Source: a virus. Taken from it: a DNA stretch of 22,126 nt. Below the pieces are notes generated by a model. The model ran no database searches. It saw nothing but the letters and a program-made list of their open reading frames with translations, and had not been told where the DNA came from. Shown piece by piece: positions 3,849 through 21,945 of this stretch. Both the position numbers and the translations under genes were made by a program. Where the stretch lies: IMG/VR virus record IMGVR_UViG_3300024520_000533, positions 1-22,126 of that record, one strand, 5' to 3'. Every line of letters begins with the position of its first letter. The first letter of the stretch is position 1.

Positions 3849-4178
3849 CTACTCCGCGAGGAGCACAGCCGCCAAGGCTGCCTGATCTGCGGTAAGTGTC
3901 TCCTGCGTATCCGCCTTTCTGAGTATGTCCTTAATCATATCTACAGCTGCACCAGGAACTTCGTATTCCCTTTCCTCTTCCGACGCTCCAAGTTTCCATG
4001 TGAACCCTTTTCCGTCATTCACAGACTCCACACCGAATTCCTTATTCTCCTCTTCAGTTAGCCCCAATACTGTCTTCGCCTGATTTATAATATTCCAATT
4101 CGTTAGAGAGTTCTGGTTTATTTCGTTGATCATCGCGAACATAACAATGCGGTTCTTGAGGTTTAACTTGAGGTTCAT
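3849..4178 (-). CDS. Small acidic protein, paralogue of the protein at 12480-12818
   Basis: A 109-residue protein of unknown function, begins MNLKLNLKNRIVMFAMINE, no membrane segment. It aligns along its whole length with the 112-residue protein encoded at 12480-12818: both share a KLxxxxRxxxF start, a block with KTVLGLTEEENKEF against KMLLGLSEADRELY, an E/K-rich stretch ending in EYEVPG against EYDLPE, and a similar helical tail. The start chosen gives the best match to the paralogue. It sits between the adaptor-like and nozzle-like genes, so a virion or assembly role is possible, but the second copy in the enzyme cassette argues for something more general. Confidence 0.7.
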   Translation of the reverse strand: MNLKLNLKNRIVMFAMINEINQNSLTNWNIINQAKTVLGLTEEENKEFGVESVNDGKGFTWKLGASEEEREYEVPGAAVDMIKDILRKADTQETLTADQAALAAVLLAE

Positions 4179-5247: not shown

Positions 5248-5252
5248 GGGGG
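5248..5252 (-). promoter_or_regulatory. C-box before the 103-residue tail-module gene
   Basis: CCCCC in the context TTAATTCCCCCTATCCC, 6 bases upstream of the ATG at 5241. It fills most of the 13-base gap between the fibre stop and this start. Confidence 0.4.
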
Positions 5253-5254
5253 AA

Positions 5255-7672
5255 TTAAGTAAGAGTAAGTGGTACTGATTCTGTAAACCAGACCTTCATT
5301 GTAACGTCTTCTACATAAGCAGGGGAGTTAGAATAATGGGCATCAACCCAAAAGCCATCTGTAGTGCCATCAAGGGGGTCCGCTATATTGCCTTCTCTTA
5401 GTCGGAAGTACTTGTTCGCTAATGCCGCCTGTGTAGCGTACGTTCCAGTCCCTATGTTCAGCTTTGCTTCATTATGTACATCGCATTCATCACCAGTAAC
5501 GTGAATGGTGAATAGGTAGGCATCAAACTCTGCGGCTGCGTTAGCTGTGAAGATGTTTGCATCAAAAGTATTTAAGGTGATATTGGCCGAATCGTTTAAT
5601 TGCTCGAATGAAACATGGTATACGTCCATGTCTGTAATGGCTACATCAGCCGTCGTTATCTGAACCACACCAGTAAACCATTTGTCTGTTATATATGCCT
5701 TAGTAAATAGATGAACTGTATTCCCATTCCCATCATCTGCTACCGAATTGTCAGTAGTAGCACCTGTGAGAGTTATTACGGAAGTCGCGCCTCCCCCTTG
5801 TGATTGATCGTTCCTGTCAACACTTGTACCTGTGAGAGTAATGTCACCCACTAAGTCACCACCAGCATTTACTACAATTAGGATTTTACCCGAACCTTTG
5901 GTTGAAATGTTGAAGGGAGCACCGCTATTAACTGCGGCGGCATCGTCTAGCTTAAGTAATCCACCGTTCCAGTGCGTTTCACTTGCTCTCGCTGGTTCTG
6001 CATCATACATAGATATGGCTATTGGAACATCTACTGTGGCGACAGTGGATACTAGGGTTTTACTTGCATCTGTTTTAACTAATTGTGATGCTGAGAGCGT
6101 GTCTAAATTAACATCATCACTAAACTTAAAGTAATCCTCATCTTCCATCCAAGTAAAGAGTCCTGAGTTCGTTGTACCGATGAAGTTCATTATAAGATCT
6201 GTATCAGCCGCAGTCATAAAGTCGAAGCCCGCGACAGAAAACATATCTAATCTGGCCGAATCGAAGGATAGATAGCTATCTGCACTTCCTGCGGCTCCTA
6301 TTTGAAGCTCCTGATTATCATTCAAAAGCTGGAAATCTCCGCTAGTCACCCTAACATTTGTAAATCCACCATCAACATTGATTTCTATTAAACCTGTTGT
6401 TGCTTGAAAAATACCATTAAAATCACTTTCCCATCTGTGAGGAAATGAACCTGATACTCTTATAGTTCCCACAACATCTAAAAGTGCACCTGGATTTGTA
6501 GTTCCTATGCCTACGTTGCCATTCTCTAAAATACTCATTCCCTCTGCCGCATCAAACCCTGTATCTGCGGACATCCTTATAGCCCCACCAGAGCGTAAAC
6601 TTAAAGCCATATCTCCAGATGCTGTGCCTGTGAGAATATTACCTGCTGCCCCTGCCTGACCCCAGAGCATAGTGTTTGGAAAATCTGTTACGCTAAATAA
6701 TAGTAAGGCACTTTTGCTAGTTGGAGCTGTGAGTTTGACTGTAGTGTCTTGTCCTGCGACTCTTGTGAACTCGAAGACTCCGCTAGAATAAAATATTGCA
6801 TCAGTATTATTAAAGGTCTGATAATAATCTGTAGCTCCTGCTGCTCCCATTTGGAACTTTAAATTGTCAGCCTGTAATGCTAAATCTCCACCTTTAAACA
6901 CACTTGTCCCATTACTATAAAGAAGAATATCTCTATTCCCTGATGCGTCATATATTCCTGTAAAAGCATGACCTGCACCATCTGTTTCAAATAGAACCTT
7001 GTTTACTGAGTCTGAAGTTTGAGTTCTAAACATTGTCTGGTTATTTGTAGCAGACGTCTTGAGGTGCAGTCTCGCAGCAGGATTAGTTTCTCCCATTCCA
7101 GTAAATCCTGTTGTGTTTGTGAATATAAAATCTCCACTAGTGAAGAACTGGGCATCTGTACCATCAAAGGTTTGGTAGTAGTCAGTAGCTCCTGCTGCAC
7201 CCATAGAAAGAAGAAGGTTATCAGCCTTAAGGGCTATCTCTGTGGCTGTAGTAGATGTTAAACCTATCTTTGCGGCATCACTTCCAAAATTAAACAACAA
7301 GTCATTTGTTTCAGCTCCAATACCTTTTAGGGTTAGCACTCCAAAAAGAGCCTGAGACGTTATTGATTGTATAAAAGAATTATTGACGCTTAAGCTACCA
7401 GGTGTAATAGTTGTATTACCTGCTACCTGAAGAGTCTGGTCTAGTATTAAAGCTCCCGTCATTGTGTCTCCTGCTATTTCTACATATCGCGCATCAAATC
7501 CTGCTTCTGTTGGAGTCTGATTGATCCACTCACTCGTTCCTGAGTCATAAGCCAGAATCTCATTATCTGCAGGAGAAGTGATTGTGACATCGTTTAAATC
7601 TGTAATAGAGTGGCTGGCTACAGCATCAATTAAGTCGAGCTCCCCTGTGAAGGCATTTAACTTATAGGTCAA
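5255..7672 (-). CDS. Tail fibre protein with repeated shaft modules
   Basis: An 805-residue fibre. The N-terminus (to about residue 75) has ITDLNDVTITSPADNEILAY and FDARYVEIAGDTMTGALIL, typical of phage fibre shafts. Two shaft-type motifs of the family, GMGETNPAARLHLK (192-205) and NVGIGTTNPGALLDV (386-400), follow. A module of about 36 residues appears three times (149-184, 268-303, 451-486), with MGAAGATDYYQTF twice and IGAAGSADSYLSF once. The last 200 residues differ and may be the receptor-binding tip; no S74 intramolecular chaperone was seen. The only start fitting the upstream stop is TTG, overlapping it as TTGA; the next in-frame ATG is 70 codons in. Product recognition should be host-cell adsorption. 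Confidence 0.85.
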   Translation of the reverse strand: MTYKLNAFTGELDLIDAVASHSITDLNDVTITSPADNEILAYDSGTSEWINQTPTEAGFDARYVEIAGDTMTGALILDQTLQVAGNTTITPGSLSVNNSFIQSITSQALFGVLTLKGIGAETNDLLFNFGSDAAKIGLTSTTATEIALKADNLLLSMGAAGATDYYQTFDGTDAQFFTSGDFIFTNTTGFTGMGETNPAARLHLKTSATNNQTMFRTQTSDSVNKVLFETDGAGHAFTGIYDASGNRDILLYSNGTSVFKGGDLALQADNLKFQMGAAGATDYYQTFNNTDAIFYSSGVFEFTRVAGQDTTVKLTAPTSKSALLLFSVTDFPNTMLWGQAGAAGNILTGTASGDMALSLRSGGAIRMSADTGFDAAEGMSILENGNVGIGTTNPGALLDVVGTIRVSGSFPHRWESDFNGIFQATTGLIEINVDGGFTNVRVTSGDFQLLNDNQELQIGAAGSADSYLSFDSARLDMFSVAGFDFMTAADTDLIMNFIGTTNSGLFTWMEDEDYFKFSDDVNLDTLSASQLVKTDASKTLVSTVATVDVPIAISMYDAEPARASETHWNGGLLKLDDAAAVNSGAPFNISTKGSGKILIVVNAGGDLVGDITLTGTSVDRNDQSQGGGATSVITLTGATTDNSVADDGNGNTVHLFTKAYITDKWFTGVVQITTADVAITDMDVYHVSFEQLNDSANITLNTFDANIFTANAAAEFDAYLFTIHVTGDECDVHNEAKLNIGTGTYATQAALANKYFRLREGNIADPLDGTTDGFWVDAHYSNSPAYVEDVTMKVWFTESVPLTLT

Positions 7673-9280: not shown

Positions 9281-9865
9281 CTACGCGCGGGGAACAAGCC
9301 AAGATGCGCGAGAGTAACCGCAATAAGGAACATCATCTAGCTCATGTCTCCAATCCCAAGGGATCGAATATGAGTCGATACTTCGCAAGCTGTAACGATC
9401 CAGTATCTTCAACACATTTCTACTAGGTTCTCTATCTGACATCACTATAAGGTCATCCCCCACCTTCCGATACCATGGTAATCTCACAACTGAAGTATGG
9501 TAAGCATCTCTCATCGCATCGTGCAGGAAGATAAGCCCCCCACTAGAAATGAGTTTAAGTGCGTTATCAATGCAGTCATTGCGATAGTTCCCGTCTACGA
9601 GCACGACGTCGAATGCACCTGCCCCCCTATCGGTATAGATATGATATTTGTCACAGAAAATGACGTTGCCACCAAGGCTCTTAATTCCGTCATACCATAA
9701 TTTGTTATCCTCTATAGCAACCCAACTACGCGTTTTATCTTTAAAATAAATTGTTGATCCACCGGAGCCCCATTCCAAAACCTTCATGGGATATAAGGCG
9801 AAGATGTCTTCTAGAAGGGTTATATCGAGAATCGACATCCATGGCTCAAGCGTCTGCATAACCAT
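9281..9865 (-). CDS. Class I SAM-dependent methyltransferase-like protein
   Basis: A 194-residue protein with Rossmann-fold methyltransferase landmarks: VLEWGSGGSTIYF (29-41; motif I, with EWGSGGST), WVAIEDN (48-54; acidic end of strand 2), FDVVLVDG (85-92) and LISSGGLIFLHDA (105-117). The WGSGGST and LVDG pattern resembles plant and bacterial O-methyltransferases that act on sugars or surface polymers, but the substrate cannot be read from the sequence. It is the last of nine overlapping genes: its start overlaps the sulfotransferase-like gene by 20 bases. ATG at 9865 and ATG two codons later are both possible. Context suggests it modifies a glycan. Confidence 0.7.
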   Translation of the reverse strand: MVMQTLEPWMSILDITLLEDIFALYPMKVLEWGSGGSTIYFKDKTRSWVAIEDNKLWYDGIKSLGGNVIFCDKYHIYTDRGAGAFDVVLVDGNYRNDCIDNALKLISSGGLIFLHDAMRDAYHTSVVRLPWYRKVGDDLIVMSDREPSRNVLKILDRYSLRSIDSYSIPWDWRHELDDVPYCGYSRASWLVPRA

Positions 9866-10385
9866 ACTTTAGCGCCAGAAGACGAATTCCCTCAGCCAGT
9901 TCTTTATCAATCTTCTCTAAATCCTTCCAGGTCTTACGTTTGGTTCGCATATTTATCCTAGAATTAAGATCTGACTTTGTCTTAGGGAATAATGGAGTAA
10001 TAGCTTCAACACGATAAGTAGCGATAGAGAAATGCTCAGCCATAAGATTCCATTCAAACCAATACTTCATACACTTAAGATCCATAGGATCAGACTCCTT
10101 AACAGTCGTATTCTTAGAAATAAACTCCCAGCTCTGATCACTTAATGTATGCAAAGTCATTATCGCGTCTAAAGGATGTCTCACTTGGTGCAACACTAAA
10201 TCATATCCTTTAGGATTTAACGCCTTGTACCAATCTGCAGTGCCATTCTTTCCTTCTATCTCATGCCCCACATCTAACCCCCACTCCTTAAGCGCTTCAG
10301 AAACATATCTAGTTCCAGATCTTCCACAGCCAGTGATTAGAATTTTAGGCGTTGCCTCCTGCGGGAGCTTGTCTTTGATCGACAT
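9846..10385 (-). CDS. Sulfotransferase-like P-loop protein
   Basis: A 179-residue protein with the sulfotransferase 5'-phosphosulfate-binding loop, ILITGCGRSGTRYVSEAL (15-32), and a 3'-phosphate-binding-like stretch, HQVRHPLDAIMTLHT (66-80, R69 in the key position; the usual later serine is not clear). A W/Y-rich segment at 107-112 (MKYWFEW) resembles the rest of the fold. Such enzymes transfer sulfate from PAPS to sugars or other acceptors. The gene overlaps the APS-kinase-like gene by 41 bases and the methyltransferase-like gene by 20, so the three are expected to be made together. It is shorter than many sulfotransferases (about 250 residues), so a related kinase-like P-loop activity cannot be excluded. 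Confidence 0.7.
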   Translation of the reverse strand: MSIKDKLPQEATPKILITGCGRSGTRYVSEALKEWGLDVGHEIEGKNGTADWYKALNPKGYDLVLHQVRHPLDAIMTLHTLSDQSWEFISKNTTVKESDPMDLKCMKYWFEWNLMAEHFSIATYRVEAITPLFPKTKSDLNSRINMRTKRKTWKDLEKIDKELAEGIRLLALKYGYADA

Positions 10386-10815
10386 AAGGCGTTTTTTGTA
10401 AGAATAAAATAAATCGCTCTATTGCTTTATTTGGTTCTCCCTCACGATTATGGATAACTAGATCCGGCTTCTTAGGGATCTCATAGGGGTAATCCTCTCT
10501 CTTCTTCTGCTCTCTATTTAAATAAATCCAGAACGGACCACAGATTGCATCCACCTGATCTCTCACCTCCTGATACGGAGCAATCACACTCACTACCACC
10601 TGATGTCCCTGCGAAGCTAATAGATTAGCAAGCCTTGCGATTCTTAAGTTGTTCTCCTTTCTTCCTTCCGGGCTTAAGCCCAAACCGATACAAATGGTTC
10701 TTCGCATCTCATCTCCATCAAGATTTATAATGTTCGGATATTTCTTCTGCGCCGCTTTTGCCAAAGTGGTTTTCCCCGCAGAACTCTGACCAGTCAACCA
10801 AAATATATTAGACAT
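10345..10815 (-). CDS. Short APS-kinase (CysC)-like P-loop kinase
   Basis: A 156-residue protein with clear adenylylsulfate-kinase landmarks: FWLTGQSSAGKTTLA (5-19, Walker A), NLDGDEMRR (31-39), GLSPEGRKENNLRIARLA (46-63) and VVSVIAPYQEVRD (74-86). The C-terminal landmark YEIPKKPDLVIHN (111-123) is also present. In CysC an RD-KGLY lid of roughly 25 residues that contacts APS lies between the last two; here only NREQKKREDYP links them, so the lid is missing. The protein is also short compared with CysC (about 200). It may phosphorylate APS to PAPS, or another small substrate. Start overlaps the HNH gene by 8 bases; the 3' end overlaps the sulfotransferase-like gene by 41. Confidence 0.8.
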   Translation of the reverse strand: MSNIFWLTGQSSAGKTTLAKAAQKKYPNIINLDGDEMRRTICIGLGLSPEGRKENNLRIARLANLLASQGHQVVVSVIAPYQEVRDQVDAICGPFWIYLNREQKKREDYPYEIPKKPDLVIHNREGEPNKAIERFILFLQKTPYVDQRQAPAGGNA

Positions 10816-11455
10816 GGCTTATAATGGAAGATTTATAGAAGTTTCTTATTTTCTTAATTTGATTCACTCTACTATTTTTCCAACCATAAGTCGGAGTTTT
10901 CTTGTGGCAGGGGACGCATAATGTCCTGCCATTACTTATATCGTATCTCAAATCCTGATGATAAATAAATGACTTAATATGATCTGAGTGCAACTTCCCA
11001 CCACGATCCCCACAGAACTGACATGTGTAATTATCTCTCTCGAATACAGATTTTCGCCATTGGATATACTCCTTACACCTATACGTATTTTTGTAGTATT
11101 TAGTTGCACCCCCCTGCCAGTTGTAATGGTTCTCGCCGATAGACCAATATGGAATATTACCCTTTTTAAATTCTCCCTTTGGATTTTTCCTAATCCCCTT
11201 ACTAGCTATGCTTAAATTTTTACAGTGTTCTTCTGACATCTTCATCCCATTATTCCAAGGAATATGCCCCTTCTTAAAGAGAAGATGTTTTATTTTCTCT
11301 TTTAATTCTTGCGGCATTTTCTTTCCTTTATTGGTAGGCACAGAACCTTTCGCATAACCAGAATATCTGCCTGAGCACTTCTTAGAACAAAACATACGAC
11401 TAGATCTAATTGGCCTAAATTCTTTGCCACATTGTTTACAACTTATATCAAGCAT
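10808..11455 (-). CDS. HNH endonuclease with zinc finger and NUMOD-like repeats
   Basis: A 215-residue DNA endonuclease of the free-standing homing type. Domains in order: zinc finger with CKQCGKEF and FCSKKC (Cys at about 6, 9, 23, 27), NUMOD3-like DNA-binding repeats at about 36-105 (KGSVPTNKGKKM, KKGHIPWNNGMKM, KKGNIPYWSIGENHYNW), and an HNH domain at 143-186 with CQFC, LHSDHIKS, N175 and CVPCHKKT. The start at 11455 is chosen because its ATG overlaps the previous stop (ATGCTTGA); an upstream ATG at 11494 would only extend inside the neighbouring gene. It cuts DNA, possibly spreading itself among relatives. It looks inserted in the enzyme cassette, directly after a nucleotidylyltransferase gene that ends early. 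Confidence 0.85.
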   Translation of the reverse strand: MLDISCKQCGKEFRPIRSSRMFCSKKCSGRYSGYAKGSVPTNKGKKMPQELKEKIKHLLFKKGHIPWNNGMKMSEEHCKNLSIASKGIRKNPKGEFKKGNIPYWSIGENHYNWQGGATKYYKNTYRCKEYIQWRKSVFERDNYTCQFCGDRGGKLHSDHIKSFIYHQDLRYDISNGRTLCVPCHKKTPTYGWKNSRVNQIKKIRNFYKSSIISHV

Positions 11456-11798
11456 TGCGAATAGCAGTACCAGATATAGCTTCTGTCTCTTCATCCAACT
11501 TGATCTCTTCTACCTCCCACCCAACTTTTCTTCCATGGCAAACCTTCATAATATTCGGCATATTTATAAAAACCATCCTTCCATCCTCTATCTCCTCTAC
11601 AAAAACCTTATGGAACATCGCACACCTCTCATTAAAGCCATAAGGATTACTCTTCGATCTATCGCAGCTCCGCATAGCGATACAAACATTCTCTCCTTTG
11701 TCTAAGGCAGTTCTAATTAGCTTTATATGCCCATCATGCAACGGCTGATAACGTCCCAAAAACATACTGTGCGGCTTATTAAAGTTCTTGCGGTTCAT
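11448..11798 (-). CDS. Nucleotidylyltransferase-like protein, short
   Basis: A 116-residue protein of the HxGH nucleotidylyltransferase fold. FLGRYQPLHDGHIKL (13-27) carries the HxGH nucleotide-binding motif, and ISGTAIR (108-114) is the second signature, ISxTxIR. Members transfer an NMP or CMP group to phosphate-containing substrates (NMNAT, FAD synthetase, glycerol-phosphate cytidylyltransferases). The GRxQPxHxGH version is closest to NMNAT/NadM-like enzymes. It ends two residues after ISGTAIR, whereas relatives normally carry a further helix of 20 or more residues, so it may be truncated. Its ATG overlaps the preceding glycosyltransferase stop by 4 bases. A sulfurylase-like role next to APS kinase is a possible but unsupported idea. 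Confidence 0.7.
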   Translation of the reverse strand: MNRKNFNKPHSMFLGRYQPLHDGHIKLIRTALDKGENVCIAMRSCDRSKSNPYGFNERCAMFHKVFVEEIEDGRMVFINMPNIMKVCHGRKVGWEVEEIKLDEETEAISGTAIRNA

Positions 11799-12487
11799 AC
11801 GTTAGGTTTTTTAAAATCCCTGTTGAGTTTATAATCGTCAACAGTAGACGAATAAAGACGGAGATGGCCTAATTTAACTTGGGGGTTGATGATGATTGGG
11901 ATCTTAGCGTCACGGCAACGTTTGGAAAAGGCTAAGTCATGTCTCAGCTCTCTATCCCACTGCTTTTCTTTCTTATCGTAGAAGTCGTAGATGTGATTAA
12001 ATGGATCTGTAGGTAGTTTCTTAATCACATCTTTGGGAATTAACATCCCGAAAGAACCAACAGCATCCACTTTTAACAACTTCTCCTCATCCCATACCTG
12101 GATATGGTCATGTTGTCCCTCCTCCTTATTCCACGTAAACATAGCAGGAAGGAATGGTGGAGCCCCTATGCACCCAATCCCAGAGACAACACAGCCAGGG
12201 TTATTCTCTGCGGTCTTTATTAAGTGGAAGAGTAAATCCGCCTCAAATGTCATATCCGTATCTATCATTAGCGCATAATCGCACTGATGTTTCAATGCCT
12301 TTTCTAAGACCTCATTCCTATTCCTGGAAGTACTTGCGGAAGCGGCCTCATAAAAAACAAACTTGCCCACCACCTTATCCTCATAAGAACAAGTCACCAT
12401 GTTTAGCATGTTACTGATATGTGCCTTCGGATAATAAAAATGTGATGGTGTCACCATGCCCACCAAAATAGAGGGGAGCTTACTCAT
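11795..12487 (-). CDS. GT-A glycosyltransferase, second paralogue
   Basis: A 230-residue glycosyltransferase of the GT-A type. GMVTPSHFYYPKAHI (10-24), RNRNEVLEKALKHQCDYALM (55-74) and the metal-binding DTD (D76 T77 D78 in MIDTDMTFEADLL) follow each other as in GT2-like enzymes. RELRHDLAFSKR (179-190) and QVKLGHLR (203-210) are shared with the protein encoded at 13357-14067, which makes them paralogues. No membrane segment is seen, so it acts in the cytoplasm using a nucleotide sugar; the sugar and acceptor are unknown. Overlaps the small acidic gene by 8 bases and the nucleotidylyltransferase gene by 4. Confidence 0.8.
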   Translation of the reverse strand: MSKLPSILVGMVTPSHFYYPKAHISNMLNMVTCSYEDKVVGKFVFYEAASASTSRNRNEVLEKALKHQCDYALMIDTDMTFEADLLFHLIKTAENNPGCVVSGIGCIGAPPFLPAMFTWNKEEGQHDHIQVWDEEKLLKVDAVGSFGMLIPKDVIKKLPTDPFNHIYDFYDKKEKQWDRELRHDLAFSKRCRDAKIPIIINPQVKLGHLRLYSSTVDDYKLNRDFKKPNV

Positions 12488-12818
12488 TGGATTCTGTTAG
12501 GAATTTCATCGCGCATGAAGCGTGACCTGCGCTGGGGATACTTCCTTCCTTATCCATCCTCTTAAACTCTTTCTTAAGTAAGACGCAAGCCTTCTCCGGA
12601 AGATCATATTCCTTCTCTTTGTCTCCCTCTTCTGTGTTCCCCCATGAAATCGCATCCTCACATTTCTTAACATCGTATAATTCACGATCAGCCTCCGAGA
12701 GTCCGAGTAGCATCTTCCCCTGATCAATACCTTTCCAGTCAGACATAGTTCCATCACAACCTTCAGATAGAACCATAAAAGCAATCATACGTTCGCCGAA
12801 GGTTAATTTAACTTTCAT
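12480..12818 (-). CDS. Small acidic protein, paralogue of the one at 3849-4178
   Basis: A 112-residue protein when started at ATG 12818, which overlaps the end of the methyltransferase-like gene by 11 bases. A longer start at 12848 is open but would read through that gene and does not match the paralogue. Rich in D, E and K. It aligns from end to end with the 109-residue tail-module protein: KLTFGERMIAFMVL against KLNLKNRIVMFAMI, KMLLGLSEADRELY against KTVLGLTEEENKEF, and EYDLPEKAC against EYEVPGAAV. Function unknown. Its place between two glycosyltransferase-family genes suggests a helper or regulator for the cassette, but the copy elsewhere argues for a wider role. Confidence 0.7.
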   Translation of the reverse strand: MKVKLTFGERMIAFMVLSEGCDGTMSDWKGIDQGKMLLGLSEADRELYDVKKCEDAISWGNTEEGDKEKEYDLPEKACVLLKKEFKRMDKEGSIPSAGHASCAMKFLTESNE

Positions 12819-13356
12819 GTCGCTTGCGGTAGAAAACCATAAAATCACGTACGTTCATGGTTTCCTTTGTCCTCCCATCATTCAACACCTCCTTTATCCT
12901 CTCCTCGCTACATGTCTCCCATCCACTACCATCCTTTCTCCCGAAGGCATGAATATCATCAACAATAATAATATCTGCATACGGCCTCTTCTTTAATACC
13001 TCTAACTCTTCCCATAGAGGAAAGGGATTCTCTGTAGCCGCGTCATCACGGAATCCCTTACACCAATGAGCATCAAGATAAAACACACATGGATACGCCA
13101 ACTCATCTTGCATATCCGCTAAGACCTTTGGAGAATCCCCAAGATGGAAAGTGATACCGAGCCCCTCAAGTCTCTTAGAGATACGCTCAAATAAACTCTT
13201 TGACAATTCGATTGTATGAACATTCTTAAAAAGCGGAGCAACATCCTTTACCGTGACTCCCTCCCCCAAGCCTGTTTCCACAAACGTATCAATATCTTTG
13301 TATTCATCATAGCGATTCATAATCTTCCACATCTGATTCTCGCTTACATAGACCAT
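12808..13356 (-). CDS. Class I methyltransferase-like protein
   Basis: A 182-residue Rossmann-fold protein. Landmarks: DTFVETGLGEGVTVKD (23-38, SAM-binding motif I), HTIELSKSL (47-55, acidic end of strand 2), FHLGDSPKVL (70-79), PCVFYLDAHW (89-98) and DIIIVDDIHAF (128-138). The series matches bacterial and phage sugar or small-molecule methyltransferases (FkbM/TylF-like in layout); the substrate is unknown. Starts immediately after the glycosyltransferase stop (TAAATG); the stretch just before it, ACCCCCTAC, encodes the last residues of that enzyme and also resembles the C-box. Overlaps the small acidic gene by 11 bases. Context suggests that it methylates a sugar. Confidence 0.7.
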   Translation of the reverse strand: MVYVSENQMWKIMNRYDEYKDIDTFVETGLGEGVTVKDVAPLFKNVHTIELSKSLFERISKRLEGLGITFHLGDSPKVLADMQDELAYPCVFYLDAHWCKGFRDDAATENPFPLWEELEVLKKRPYADIIIVDDIHAFGRKDGSGWETCSEERIKEVLNDGRTKETMNVRDFMVFYRKRHES

Positions 13357-14067
13357 TTAAGTAGGGGGTAATGGCGGCTTAAAATCTCTGTTGCGTATCC
13401 AATCCTCCATAGTGATAGAGGATGGTCTTAGGTGTCCTAACTGTACTCTTGGATCGCAAATGATTTTAAACCCCGCCTCCTTCACACGTTTCGAGAATGC
13501 AAGATCGTGTCTAAGTTCCTTATCTTCTATGCACTCTCCCCACGGATAATAGTCTGGGATGTGATCAAATGGATGCTTATCTAAAGCCTCAATAATCTTC
13601 TTTGGGATTAAGAGACACACCGTACCAAAGGCATCTATCTCAAATGGTTCATCAGGCCAATGCTCAATATGAGTTGGCTTCTTATCCTCTCTATCCGGCC
13701 ACATATAAATATTAGGGCGGAATGGAGGCTTTCCGAGTGTCGCAAGACCAGTGATCACCGCATCAGGATTCGCCTTTGCTGTTTCTAACATCAGTTCAAT
13801 TGCATTAGGCTTCCACTCCATATCACTATCAATCATCAGAACGTAGTCCTCCACTGTAATAGCATCCAGAGCTTTATTGCGGTTTGTTGCAGTGCGCGGG
13901 GATGAGAGATAGAAAATGTTAAAAGCTGTTACAGCTTTTTGGAATTGGCTATAGCTGATTAAACGCATCGAAGATTCGACAAACTGCCTTGGGAAGTAGA
14001 AGTGGCTTGGCGTGATTACTCCCCAGAGGATGATAGGTGGTTTATCTGGCATGGGGGGAGAATACAT
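13357..14067 (-). CDS. GT-A glycosyltransferase, first paralogue
   Basis: A 236-residue GT-A type glycosyltransferase. ILWGVITPSHFYFPRQF (13-29), RTATNRNKALD (58-68) and the metal-binding DSD (D80 S81 D82 in LMIDSDMEWKPNAI) are followed by RHDLAFSKR (186-194) and QLGHLR (209-214). It is a paralogue of the protein at 11795-12487, with a similar length and the same end-of-domain motifs. No membrane segment; cytoplasmic enzyme with unknown sugar and acceptor. First gene of the nine-gene cassette. An inner ATG at 14052 is an alternative start; the outer one (14067) sits at the foot of the terminator-like hairpin, so expression may depend on read-through or on opening that hairpin. Confidence 0.8.
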   Translation of the reverse strand: MYSPPMPDKPPIILWGVITPSHFYFPRQFVESSMRLISYSQFQKAVTAFNIFYLSSPRTATNRNKALDAITVEDYVLMIDSDMEWKPNAIELMLETAKANPDAVITGLATLGKPPFRPNIYMWPDREDKKPTHIEHWPDEPFEIDAFGTVCLLIPKKIIEALDKHPFDHIPDYYPWGECIEDKELRHDLAFSKRVKEAGFKIICDPRVQLGHLRPSSITMEDWIRNRDFKPPLPPT

Positions 14068-14068
14068 G

Positions 14069-14094
14069 AAAAGAGGAGCCGAAGCCCCCCTCTT
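14069..14094 (-). terminator. UUCG hairpin terminator after the head module
   Basis: Minus-strand RNA folds 14094-14084 onto 14079-14069: 11 pairs including several G-U wobbles, closed by a cUUCGg tetraloop, then a short CUUUU run that lies inside the 3' arm. The tetraloop reads UUCG only on the minus strand, which gives the direction. It lies between the stop of the repetitive head protein and the start of the cassette. Confidence 0.6.
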
Positions 14095-14121
14095 CTAAAT
14101 TGCCGATAATGAGTTCTAAGT

Positions 14122-20058: not shown

Positions 20059-20427
20059 ATGCACCTTCTGCGTGTATATCGAATCCAGCAAGGCTTACAG
20101 AAGAAAGAGCTCGCTGAAAAAGCAGGGCTAACTGTGCGGATAATTACGGAAATGGAGAAGAATCAGGACTACAACGCGTCCCGTCTCACCATGTTAAAGA
20201 TATCAGGAGCTCTTGGGCTCCCCTCTTCCATGATCTTCTTTCCGGAAGATGAATTACCCATGCGCGCAATGTACGCTAAGTTTCTTGTACATTTCCTGAA
20301 GACGGCGAAAGCGCAAGGGCTGATAGATGTTAGTAAACAACAGACCTTTTCCGGTTTCTTTTTTGTGCCAAGAAGTAGCGTGGAGTTCCGGGCCGTGGAG
20401 CCTCCTCATCCGCAATCAAAGGCTTAG
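20059..20427 (+). CDS. XRE-family transcriptional regulator
   Basis: A 122-residue protein and the only clear plus-strand gene. Residues 3-57 form a lambda-repressor-type helix-turn-helix: LRVYRIQQGLQKKELAEKAG (helices 1 and 2), LTVRIITEMEKN (recognition helix) and LTMLKISGALGL (last helices). The C-terminal 50 residues have no recognised fold and end in an unstructured-looking tail (FRAVEPPHPQSKA). The start is fixed because an in-frame stop lies 15 bases upstream. Its last 98 bases overlap the 3' end of terL in antisense, and its body lies antisense to the terL-to-portal transcript. Likely function: repressor of itself or of late genes; targets unknown. Confidence 0.8.
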   Translation: MHLLRVYRIQQGLQKKELAEKAGLTVRIITEMEKNQDYNASRLTMLKISGALGLPSSMIFFPEDELPMRAMYAKFLVHFLKTAKAQGLIDVSKQQTFSGFFFVPRSSVEFRAVEPPHPQSKA

Positions 20428-21928
20428 CATGAGAAAGAACATAATATCGAAGTGCATCCATAGCGTGATCATTCTCTTTGCGTGGAGTCTCATATTTCCC
20501 AGCATTTAATCCACCTTGGGGATCTTTAGGCCAACGATACAAACCAAACTCCTTAATCAAATTATGACAATCTTCTGTAATAAATAGACGCGGAGCCCCT
20601 TTCTTAAACCTATTCTTCTCATCACGCTTGTAGGGATGAATGTGCTCAGGATCAAAACGTAAGTACTGTCGCACCCTAGCGATCCCAGCCATCACATCAT
20701 TTTGAGTTCCGTAAGCAATCTTCACACCATGTTCACGGAAAATGTCTGACACGGACTTACGATGGTCCTCACCATGCCGGTGCATGATTGGGGGGGCTTG
20801 AGTCTTAAAGTGCATAGACGGATCTGCGAAATGAACCTTCTTAATCCCCTGTTTCCTTAACCATTTACAAGCCTCATCAATCGGACACTCACGCTGATAG
20901 AATTCCTTAAACACAATATGATTTCCATCGTGGTCCTGATGGATCAATAGAAAACACATTGGGTTTGTTTGGCCGAAGTCCGCGCTCACTTTAAAATCCT
21001 TAAACTCCATGGGCGGCACGACATTAAGATGCTCAGAGAATTCCTTATAAACCCGGCCTGTACTAAAAATAAACGCCTCCTCCGGAGTAGATGGATATAG
21101 CTCAGGCATACGCTCCCCCAACTGAAATTTCTTCCGATCCCACCACAATAGTTGCTCCTTAGTTAGCTCCTTCCCATCCTTATTTTTAAACTTTGCACGT
21201 AGCTCTTTACACTTATCCGGATAGTAATATTCAGTTCCTTTCTTCCACGGAACTTCGTTCATCGGATCATCAAACCAAGCGTAAAACATAGGCCACCATT
21301 CAGGCTCTTTCCCCTCCTGTAGGACCTTCCAGTTGTTCATAAATGTAGTCTCAAACCAATTCCCTACTCCATTCGCTGTACTCTCCGCGATACCTAAAGC
21401 CGTGAGAGGTAGAGACTCTAAGGTATCCTCCAACTTCTGTTCATCATCCACGTATGCGATCTCTGAGAAATGCAAAATAGTTGGCGTCATTCCTCTAGCC
21501 TCAACATCAATAGAATACTTAGATCCTGTTTTCTCAAACTGTAATTCTGCGCGGGTTGTGTATTTTTCTTTAGGACGCAACACGGGATTTATACGATCAA
21601 AAGCAAAGCGAGGTATGTCGTTAAACAATTCCTGCACCGTCTGTTTTCTATGCGCGATGGTGCGACACATTTGGTTAGGGGTGTACATCGCCTTATCCAA
21701 AAGATAGAGAGCAATTCCTGTTGTCGTCCCTAGCTTTCTAGGTTTTAAAATAATTATCCTTTTCTTCCCATCCTCTATCTTCTGATAGATCTCCCTTTGC
21801 ACTTCATTAGGCTGGAAGATGACAGTCTTGCCCTCATAGCCCGGCATCTTAGTTCTGATCTGATATAGGTTGTGCATTCTCCAATATGGGTCCATTAGCT
21901 TCTCCATGGAGCTTTTTTCTTTGGGCAT
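20330..21928 (-). CDS. terL: Terminase large subunit
   Basis: A 532-residue packaging ATPase and nuclease, numbered from the ATG at 21928. ATPase domain: LKPRKLGTTTG (61-71, Walker A), PTILHFSEIAY (149-159, Walker B with the catalytic Glu), GIAESTANG (179-187, coupling motif). Nuclease domain: VSADFGQTNPMCF (314-326, first metal-binding Asp), HFADPSMH (366-373), NDHAMDALRYYV (486-497, last acidic pair). A GTG at 21943 would add five residues (MYYNI); the ATG is preferred because a perfect plus-strand promoter covers the GTG region and MPKEK is a more usual beginning. It packages DNA through the portal. No small-terminase gene is complete in the window. Length is typical. Confidence 0.92.
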   Translation of the reverse strand: MPKEKSSMEKLMDPYWRMHNLYQIRTKMPGYEGKTVIFQPNEVQREIYQKIEDGKKRIIILKPRKLGTTTGIALYLLDKAMYTPNQMCRTIAHRKQTVQELFNDIPRFAFDRINPVLRPKEKYTTRAELQFEKTGSKYSIDVEARGMTPTILHFSEIAYVDDEQKLEDTLESLPLTALGIAESTANGVGNWFETTFMNNWKVLQEGKEPEWWPMFYAWFDDPMNEVPWKKGTEYYYPDKCKELRAKFKNKDGKELTKEQLLWWDRKKFQLGERMPELYPSTPEEAFIFSTGRVYKEFSEHLNVVPPMEFKDFKVSADFGQTNPMCFLLIHQDHDGNHIVFKEFYQRECPIDEACKWLRKQGIKKVHFADPSMHFKTQAPPIMHRHGEDHRKSVSDIFREHGVKIAYGTQNDVMAGIARVRQYLRFDPEHIHPYKRDEKNRFKKGAPRLFITEDCHNLIKEFGLYRWPKDPQGGLNAGKYETPRKENDHAMDALRYYVLSHAKPLIADEEAPRPGTPRYFLAQKRNRKRSVVY

Positions 21929-21930
21929 GA

Positions 21931-21939
21931 TGTTATAAT
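21931..21939 (+). promoter_or_regulatory. Extended -10 promoter for candidate small RNA
   Basis: TGTTATAAT on the plus strand is a perfect TGnTATAAT extended -10 element. No strong -35 box is seen, as is normal for this class. Transcription would start near 21945-21946, at the foot of the first hairpin of the candidate RNA. Confidence 0.45.
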
Positions 21940-21945
21940 ACACAG

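Follow-up and report, generated by a model that had tools for sequence, protein, structure and literature searches.

Nine overlapping open reading frames (ORFs) occupy the minus strand, at positions 14067-9281, of a viral record of 22,126 bases (IMGVR_UViG_3300024520_000533), which was analysed whole and is hereafter called the window. We consider it likely that this block is an accessory sulfation cassette, in which an adenylyltransferase-fold protein (N5) and a kinase (K7) act as a miniature synthetase of 3'-phosphoadenosine 5'-phosphosulfate (PAPS) that feeds a sulfotransferase (S8). In the proposed mechanism, N5 would adenylylate sulfate using ATP, yielding adenosine 5'-phosphosulfate (APS), K7 would phosphorylate the 3' hydroxyl of APS to give PAPS, and S8 would transfer sulfate from PAPS to an acceptor, which the glycosyltransferases T1 and T4 and the probable methyltransferases M2 and M9 would build and modify. 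As the acceptor, we consider a short glycan most likely; it would be made late in infection and carried either by a virion protein or by the host surface. N5 and K7, whose families we call N and K, would together constitute a minimal PAPS synthetase, with a small adenylyltransferase similar to NadM and PPAT, the nicotinamide mononucleotide (NMN) and phosphopantetheine adenylyltransferases, in place of ATP sulfurylase.

N5 (11448..11798, minus strand) is a minimal HxGH adenylyltransferase-fold protein of 116 amino acids that matches Pfam CTP_transf_like (2e-10) and contains the motifs GRYQPLHDGH and ISGTAIR; its relatives also keep Arg43 and GRxVG(Y/W). The first-pass annotation had called it nucleotidylyltransferase-like. 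Its AlphaFold2 model (predicted local distance difference test score, 89) has the PPAT/NadM fold, with VIA scores of Z 9-10 against both phosphopantetheine and NMN adenylyltransferases (around 26% identity to the NadM type). The N5 profile matched NadM-type enzymes at about 1e-12 over its first 76 positions, and the likeness extends to the GRxQPxHxGH and ISxTxIR motifs. Unlike NadM, however, N is some 25 residues shorter in mid-chain, before the last motif (profile positions 76-85 correspond to chain residues 76-110 in 1f9a), contains GRxVG(Y/W) and an invariant Arg43, and is paired with an APS kinase. N5 has the HxGH and ISxTxIR signatures of NadM without its full-length middle region, which in MtNMNAT binds nicotinamide. 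Against the ATP sulfurylase family PF01747, N5 scored 13.5 bits, below the cut-off of 24.3, its relatives also stayed under the cut-off, and no ATP sulfurylase was among the best 50 matches listed in the fold comparison, a result that carries no weight either way. We propose, from its fold and its pairing with APS kinase, that N5 may substitute for ATP sulfurylase, converting sulfate and ATP into APS; if this activity is confirmed, N5 would represent a novel type of sulfurylase, because it lies outside the known ATP-sulfurylase family.

K7 (10345..10815, minus strand) belongs to the APS-kinase family but has a short lid, and it matches Pfam APS_kinase at 2.4e-23 (83 bits against a cut-off of 21). 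Its model gave Z 18-21 to APS kinases, as compared with 17 to the next family, and when the K family profile was run against PDB sequences, 24 APS-kinase or PAPS-synthetase sequences ranked first. The P-loop and the substrate residues (DGDxxR...R...N) are present in K7 (G9, GKT, D35, R38, R52, N55), with Leu replacing the Phe of LGFS, and almost every member of the family retains D35, R38 and R52. The classical lid (KGLYKKARxGxIKGFTG) is absent, the distance from R85 to the YE motif being 27 residues, versus 50 in the full-lid kinases of L014 and L015. K7 is plainly related to APS kinases, and conversion of APS to PAPS is its predicted activity.

The association of the two families was evaluated in IMG/VR, which contains at least 585 confirmed stretches with N relatives; 80 of these were kept and reduced to 61 clusters at 90% identity. 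In 50 of the 61 non-redundant viral loci, K lies within 500 bases of N or is fused to it, in the orders K-N (22 loci) and N-K (nine) or as a single gene (19). K is farther away in six loci, the window included, and was not seen in the other five, among which are contig ends. The occurrence of both orders, and of fusions, is as expected for a functional pair. In three phage contigs (L014, L015 and L025), the APS kinase that accompanies N has a full lid; the order in L015 is sulfotransferase, N, K, 231 amino acids, sulfotransferase. No canonical ATP sulfurylase scored over the cut-off in any of the 50 N-K records, and our literature search found no description of N paired with K. Other neighbours recur in viral contigs: 2-oxoglutarate (2OG)-Fe(II) oxygenases, falling into two or more Pfam types, lie beside N-K (for example, L027:1070-2262 and L055:12227-12733) and perhaps make hydroxyl acceptors, and similar small hydrophobic segments occur beside or fused to K (L015:10335-11078, N-terminal part; L093:9753-10001, the latter without a Pfam match).

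S8 (9846..10385, minus strand) is a small sulfotransferase-like protein that contains both a 5'-phosphosulfate-binding-like motif (GCGRSGT) and a 3'-phosphate-binding-like motif (RHPLDAIMT). Residues R22, S23, T25 and R69-H70-P71 are invariant in its family, most members of which also have Ser or Thr eight residues past R69. The family assignment finds support in relatives in L008, L007 and L014 that match Sulfotransfer_3; of nine aligned relatives, three match this family (best, 5e-5). The best match of the S8 profile among PDB sequences, the CurM sulfotransferase, was not significant (E 0.2), and a protein search against cultured phages returned no match for S8. From the motifs and relatives we infer that S8 is a sulfotransferase.

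Sulfotransferases are a recurrent feature of N-K loci and belong to several families, one found in 12 loci and another in four by neighbour clustering. They exceeded Pfam cut-offs in 22 of the 50 N-K records (Sulfotransfer_3 in 15, Sulfotransfer_2 in eight) and in none of 25 control viral contigs, a lenient control drawn by an arbitrary 15-mer (Fisher P 2.4e-5, although P values overstate independence because N-K loci are partly related). The sulfotransferase was located within 3 kb of N-K in 18 of 25 cases, as compared with 8.7 expected, and on the same strand in 24 of 25, with a median distance of 1.5 kb versus 4.8 kb expected. In the cultured phage DLP_6 (KU682439.2), an annotated sulfotransferase occurs together with a K-N fusion gene (38223-38837 and 129043-129774), and a second N-like place was reported in its record. 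In the 83-kb viral contig L098, a tightly packed operon contains, in this order, a Sulfotransfer_1 protein, two ORFs that match no Pfam family, a UDP-sugar dehydrogenase, an epimerase and a homologue of M2 (33% identity) directly before a fused N-K. Exactly this combination of nine genes was seen nowhere else, and the L098 operon, the nearest to it, supports a sugar as the probable product, as do the two paralogous glycosyltransferases of the window. The sulfate activation and sulfotransfer that the first-pass annotation had read from the window are strongly supported by the N-K pairing, the fusions and the linkage to sulfotransferases, and the sugar setting that it proposed agrees with both glycosyltransferases and the L098 operon.

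The same genes are joined in cellular genomes. A single 555-amino-acid ORF of Rhizobium sp. BK376 (L165) contains Sulfotransfer_2 (residues 21-231), APS_kinase (292-373) and an HxGH domain from residue 436, and full-lid APS kinases are fused to N in a Thalassarchaeum metagenome-assembled genome (MAG; L178) and in Euryarchaeota UBA552 (L175). Sulfotransferases abut, or nearly abut, the fused pair in a Patescibacteria MAG (L161) and a Diapherotrites MAG (L156), and the order in a Pelagibacteraceae genome (L173) is K, N, a pyruvate-kinase-like barrel and a sulfotransferase. Among the 24 cellular genomes that encode N, many of which are incomplete, Sat exceeded the cut-off in one and CysD only in Rhizobium; below the cut-off, CysD matched strongly in Diapherotrites and weakly in one further genome. 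As a separate observation, the short pyruvate-kinase barrel protein adjoins K-N in three Pelagibacteraceae loci (L170:7346-8344, L173:7360-8394, L174:5530-6492).

Several observations weigh against N-K as a sulfate-activating module and against its role in the window. N5 resembles NMN and phosphopantetheine adenylyltransferases most closely, rather than ATP sulfurylase; the classical lid is missing from K7 and from most viral K proteins, and the APS-kinase Asn (N55 in K7) is not kept across the family. On its own, S8 is a weak sulfotransferase match (Pfam E 0.07), and N-K was not seen in seven of the nine S8-type loci, within the DNA examined. No sulfotransferase was seen in roughly half of the N-K records, though many of these are fragmentary, and two cultured phages with complete genomes, Suzuki and Clavibacter phage 33, encode a fused N-K and gave no Sulfotransfer_2 or Sulfotransfer_3 match. 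To these are added the leniency of the viral control and the pyruvate-kinase-like barrel protein beside K-N in SAR11, from which a wider role of the pair is possible.

Among the alternatives, the one closest to our reading retains the sulfation chemistry and directs it to a non-glycan target, be it a virion protein, a lipid, or nucleotides and DNA. The DLP_6 sulfotransferase lies near replication genes, 2OG-Fe(II) oxygenases recur near N-K, and sulfotransferase-based nucleotide modification is stated as reported in phages (PMC10829341); conversely, the window genes sit in a late structural operon with two glycosyltransferases, and L098 has UDP-sugar enzymes, and we hold such a target possible, at clearly longer odds than our main reading. 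A sulfated glycan is the likeliest target, as we infer from the glycosyltransferases and probable methyltransferases, and its location and any benefit it brings are putative. It is rather unlikely that K7 instead acts on an alcohol or sugar and that N5 nucleotidylates the phosphorylated product, as in NadR- or HldE-type pairs, supplying an activated donor for T1 and T4, with the sulfotransferase incidental. The proximity of N5 to NadM and PPAT, the SIS-domain and epimerase-like neighbours at some N-K loci, and the potential of a lid-less K to take another substrate all fit such a pathway, whereas the near-universal D35, R38 and R52 of K, the full-lid APS kinases fused to or beside N, the recurrent sulfotransferase linkage and the sulfotransferase-K-N triple fusion do not.

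Genes of the cysC type in phages, along with cysH, have been reported as viral genes of sulfate reduction (PMC10914622, PMC9529941, PMC8190135), and published auxiliary-gene surveys take cysC-type genes to boost assimilatory sulfate reduction in the host. However, the PAPS reductase family was detected in none of the 50 N-K records, although the same search was positive in 14 of 14 control genomes, and sulfotransferases occur at N-K records instead. The N-K loci argue for sulfation; the sulfate-reduction reading is disfavoured here, and we attach very little probability to it. Just as improbable is a pair for NAD+ salvage or counter-defence, composed of a ribosylnicotinamide kinase and an NMN adenylyltransferase: the profile match of N5 to NadM enzymes speaks for it, and we place it low because N is without the NadM middle region, the stretch missing between two aligned segments, and because K is related to APS kinases.

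In the window, the nine-gene block follows, in minus-strand order, terL (20330-21943), the portal gene, a scaffold-like gene, the major capsid protein gene and p365, and is followed by coiled-coil, fibre-like, tail-region and endolysin genes, in accordance with the earlier placement of the block between head and tail modules. All nine ORFs were present and their junctions were as described before, provided that A3 and H6 begin at internal ATG codons. T1 and M2 abut in TAAATG (13359-13354), and the remaining overlaps are of 11 bases for M2/A3 (from the A3 ATG at 12818; 41 from GTG 12848), 8 for A3/T4, 4 for T4/N5, 8 for N5/H6 (from the H6 ATG at 11455; 47 from the first ATG, 11494), 8 for H6/K7, 41 for K7/S8 and 20 for S8/M9. 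The terminator reported before the block was recovered upstream of T1 as a terminator-like hairpin with a 12-pair stem, a 4-base loop and a T-rich tail (14068..14095, minus strand). The promoter claimed after it was not sustained: the site 3' of the block (9270-9242) is a 10/12 match, which is no evidence because the region has fewer promoter-like sites (six) than shuffled sequences (14.3). The G+C content of the block, approximately 0.39-0.43, is below that of its flanks, approximately 0.44-0.485. Rfam and tRNA scans gave no matches, nor did a DNA-level search of the whole cassette against cultured phages. Between terL and the portal gene, a small helix-turn-helix-like gene is oriented opposite to the operon (20059-20427, plus strand), and genes of the same type occupy this place in relatives (for example, L179:2532-2861, minus strand).

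Capsid searches retrieved only three relative contigs, with capsid identities of 71-73% and shared neighbouring genes. One of them, L179 (capsid about 71% identical), keeps the order terL-portal-scaffold-capsid-p365-coil140 without the nine-gene block, in whose place there is only a single HNH-type ORF (9328-9843; 'MKTIPLSDGFEALVDDDDY', HNH/AP2-like by eye). The cassette is accessory, and was gained or lost in the manner of a moron, because L179 keeps the flanks without it. This contig has a second, different HNH-like ORF between the portal and scaffold genes (5252-5938), and L002 (4282-4818), L179 (167-712) and L180 (1277-1822) each have one T1/T4-type glycosyltransferase gene, encoded upstream of terL and on the strand opposite to it.

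Regarding the remaining genes of the block, T1 (13357..14067, minus strand) is a GT2-type (GT-A) glycosyltransferase with a DxD-like MIDSDMEW, matching Glycos_transf_2 (5e-8; 33.5 bits against a cut-off of 23.3) and phrog_1574 (1e-12). T4 (11795..12487, minus strand; MIDTDMTF) is a second GT-A glycosyltransferase, paralogous to T1 (41% identity), that matches the glycosyltransferase phrog_34859 (5.5e-8) and scores 13.9 bits for Glycos_transf_2, below the same cut-off. M2 (12808..13356, minus strand; Methyltransf_25, 0.005) is a probable S-adenosylmethionine-dependent methyltransferase and M9 (9281..9865, minus strand; Methyltransf_24, 0.057, with LEWGSGGST by eye) a probable methyltransferase, their best scores against Pfam methyltransferase families, 18 and 14.8 bits, being under the cut-offs. 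The family assignments are firm for GT2 (T4 as a paralogue), CTP_transf_like, HNH and APS_kinase, and weak for the methyltransferases and S8 taken alone.

Besides the accessory status of the cassette, two of its genes call for corrections to the first-pass annotation. A3 (12480..12818, minus strand), a small acidic protein that is not recognisable as an enzyme and has no Pfam or PHROG family match, is a paralogue of a tail-region gene of the window (3849-4178; 27% identity, E 5e-15), which likewise matches no family in either database. H6 (10808..11455, minus strand; Pfam HNH, 8e-7), a free-standing zinc-ribbon HNH endonuclease between N5 and K7, is a mobile insertion outside the pathway and would have split the N-K pair. 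The site is variable, with the N-K order lacking an HNH gene in L004, L017 and L020, and N-K has a different HNH-like ORF in its vicinity in L093 and, judged by eye, in L015, where the ORF has no Pfam match.

N-K resembles known PAPS synthetases (human PAPSS1, Aquifex SAT/APS kinase) in joining an adenylyltransferase and an APS kinase, fused or adjacent, and the archaeal K-N fusions of L175 and L178 have the kinase-first order of PAPSS1. It differs from them in assigning the sulfurylase role to a NadM/PPAT-type domain of about 110 amino acids, ATP sulfurylase being much larger, and in the often short lid of viral K. The same K and N domains are fused in phrog_10255 (Suzuki, Clavibacter phage 33, DLP_6), whose members are annotated only as kinase or hypothetical protein. 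The viral auxiliary metabolic gene cysC resembles K in encoding an APS kinase in phage genomes; the literature assigns cysC to sulfate reduction, whereas K is linked here to sulfotransferases and N. For phage sulfotransferases, the function has been stated to be unclear (PMC10580990).

A compact activating module links viral cysC and phage sulfotransferases, giving both one testable function, sulfation. We lean, by a modest degree, towards N being an unrecognised family of miniature ATP sulfurylases that evolved from a NadM/PPAT-like adenylyltransferase and that forms with K the smallest known PAPS synthetase, serving sulfation in many environmental phages, Patescibacteria, SAR11 and marine archaea, often in genomes without detected Sat or CysD. 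Relatives of this proposed small sulfate-activating substitute are widespread in environmental phages and occur in some tiny-genome microbes. N is thus a candidate for a novel family of enzymes catalysing a textbook reaction, and some phages would produce activated sulfate themselves and use it to modify virions or the surfaces of their hosts.

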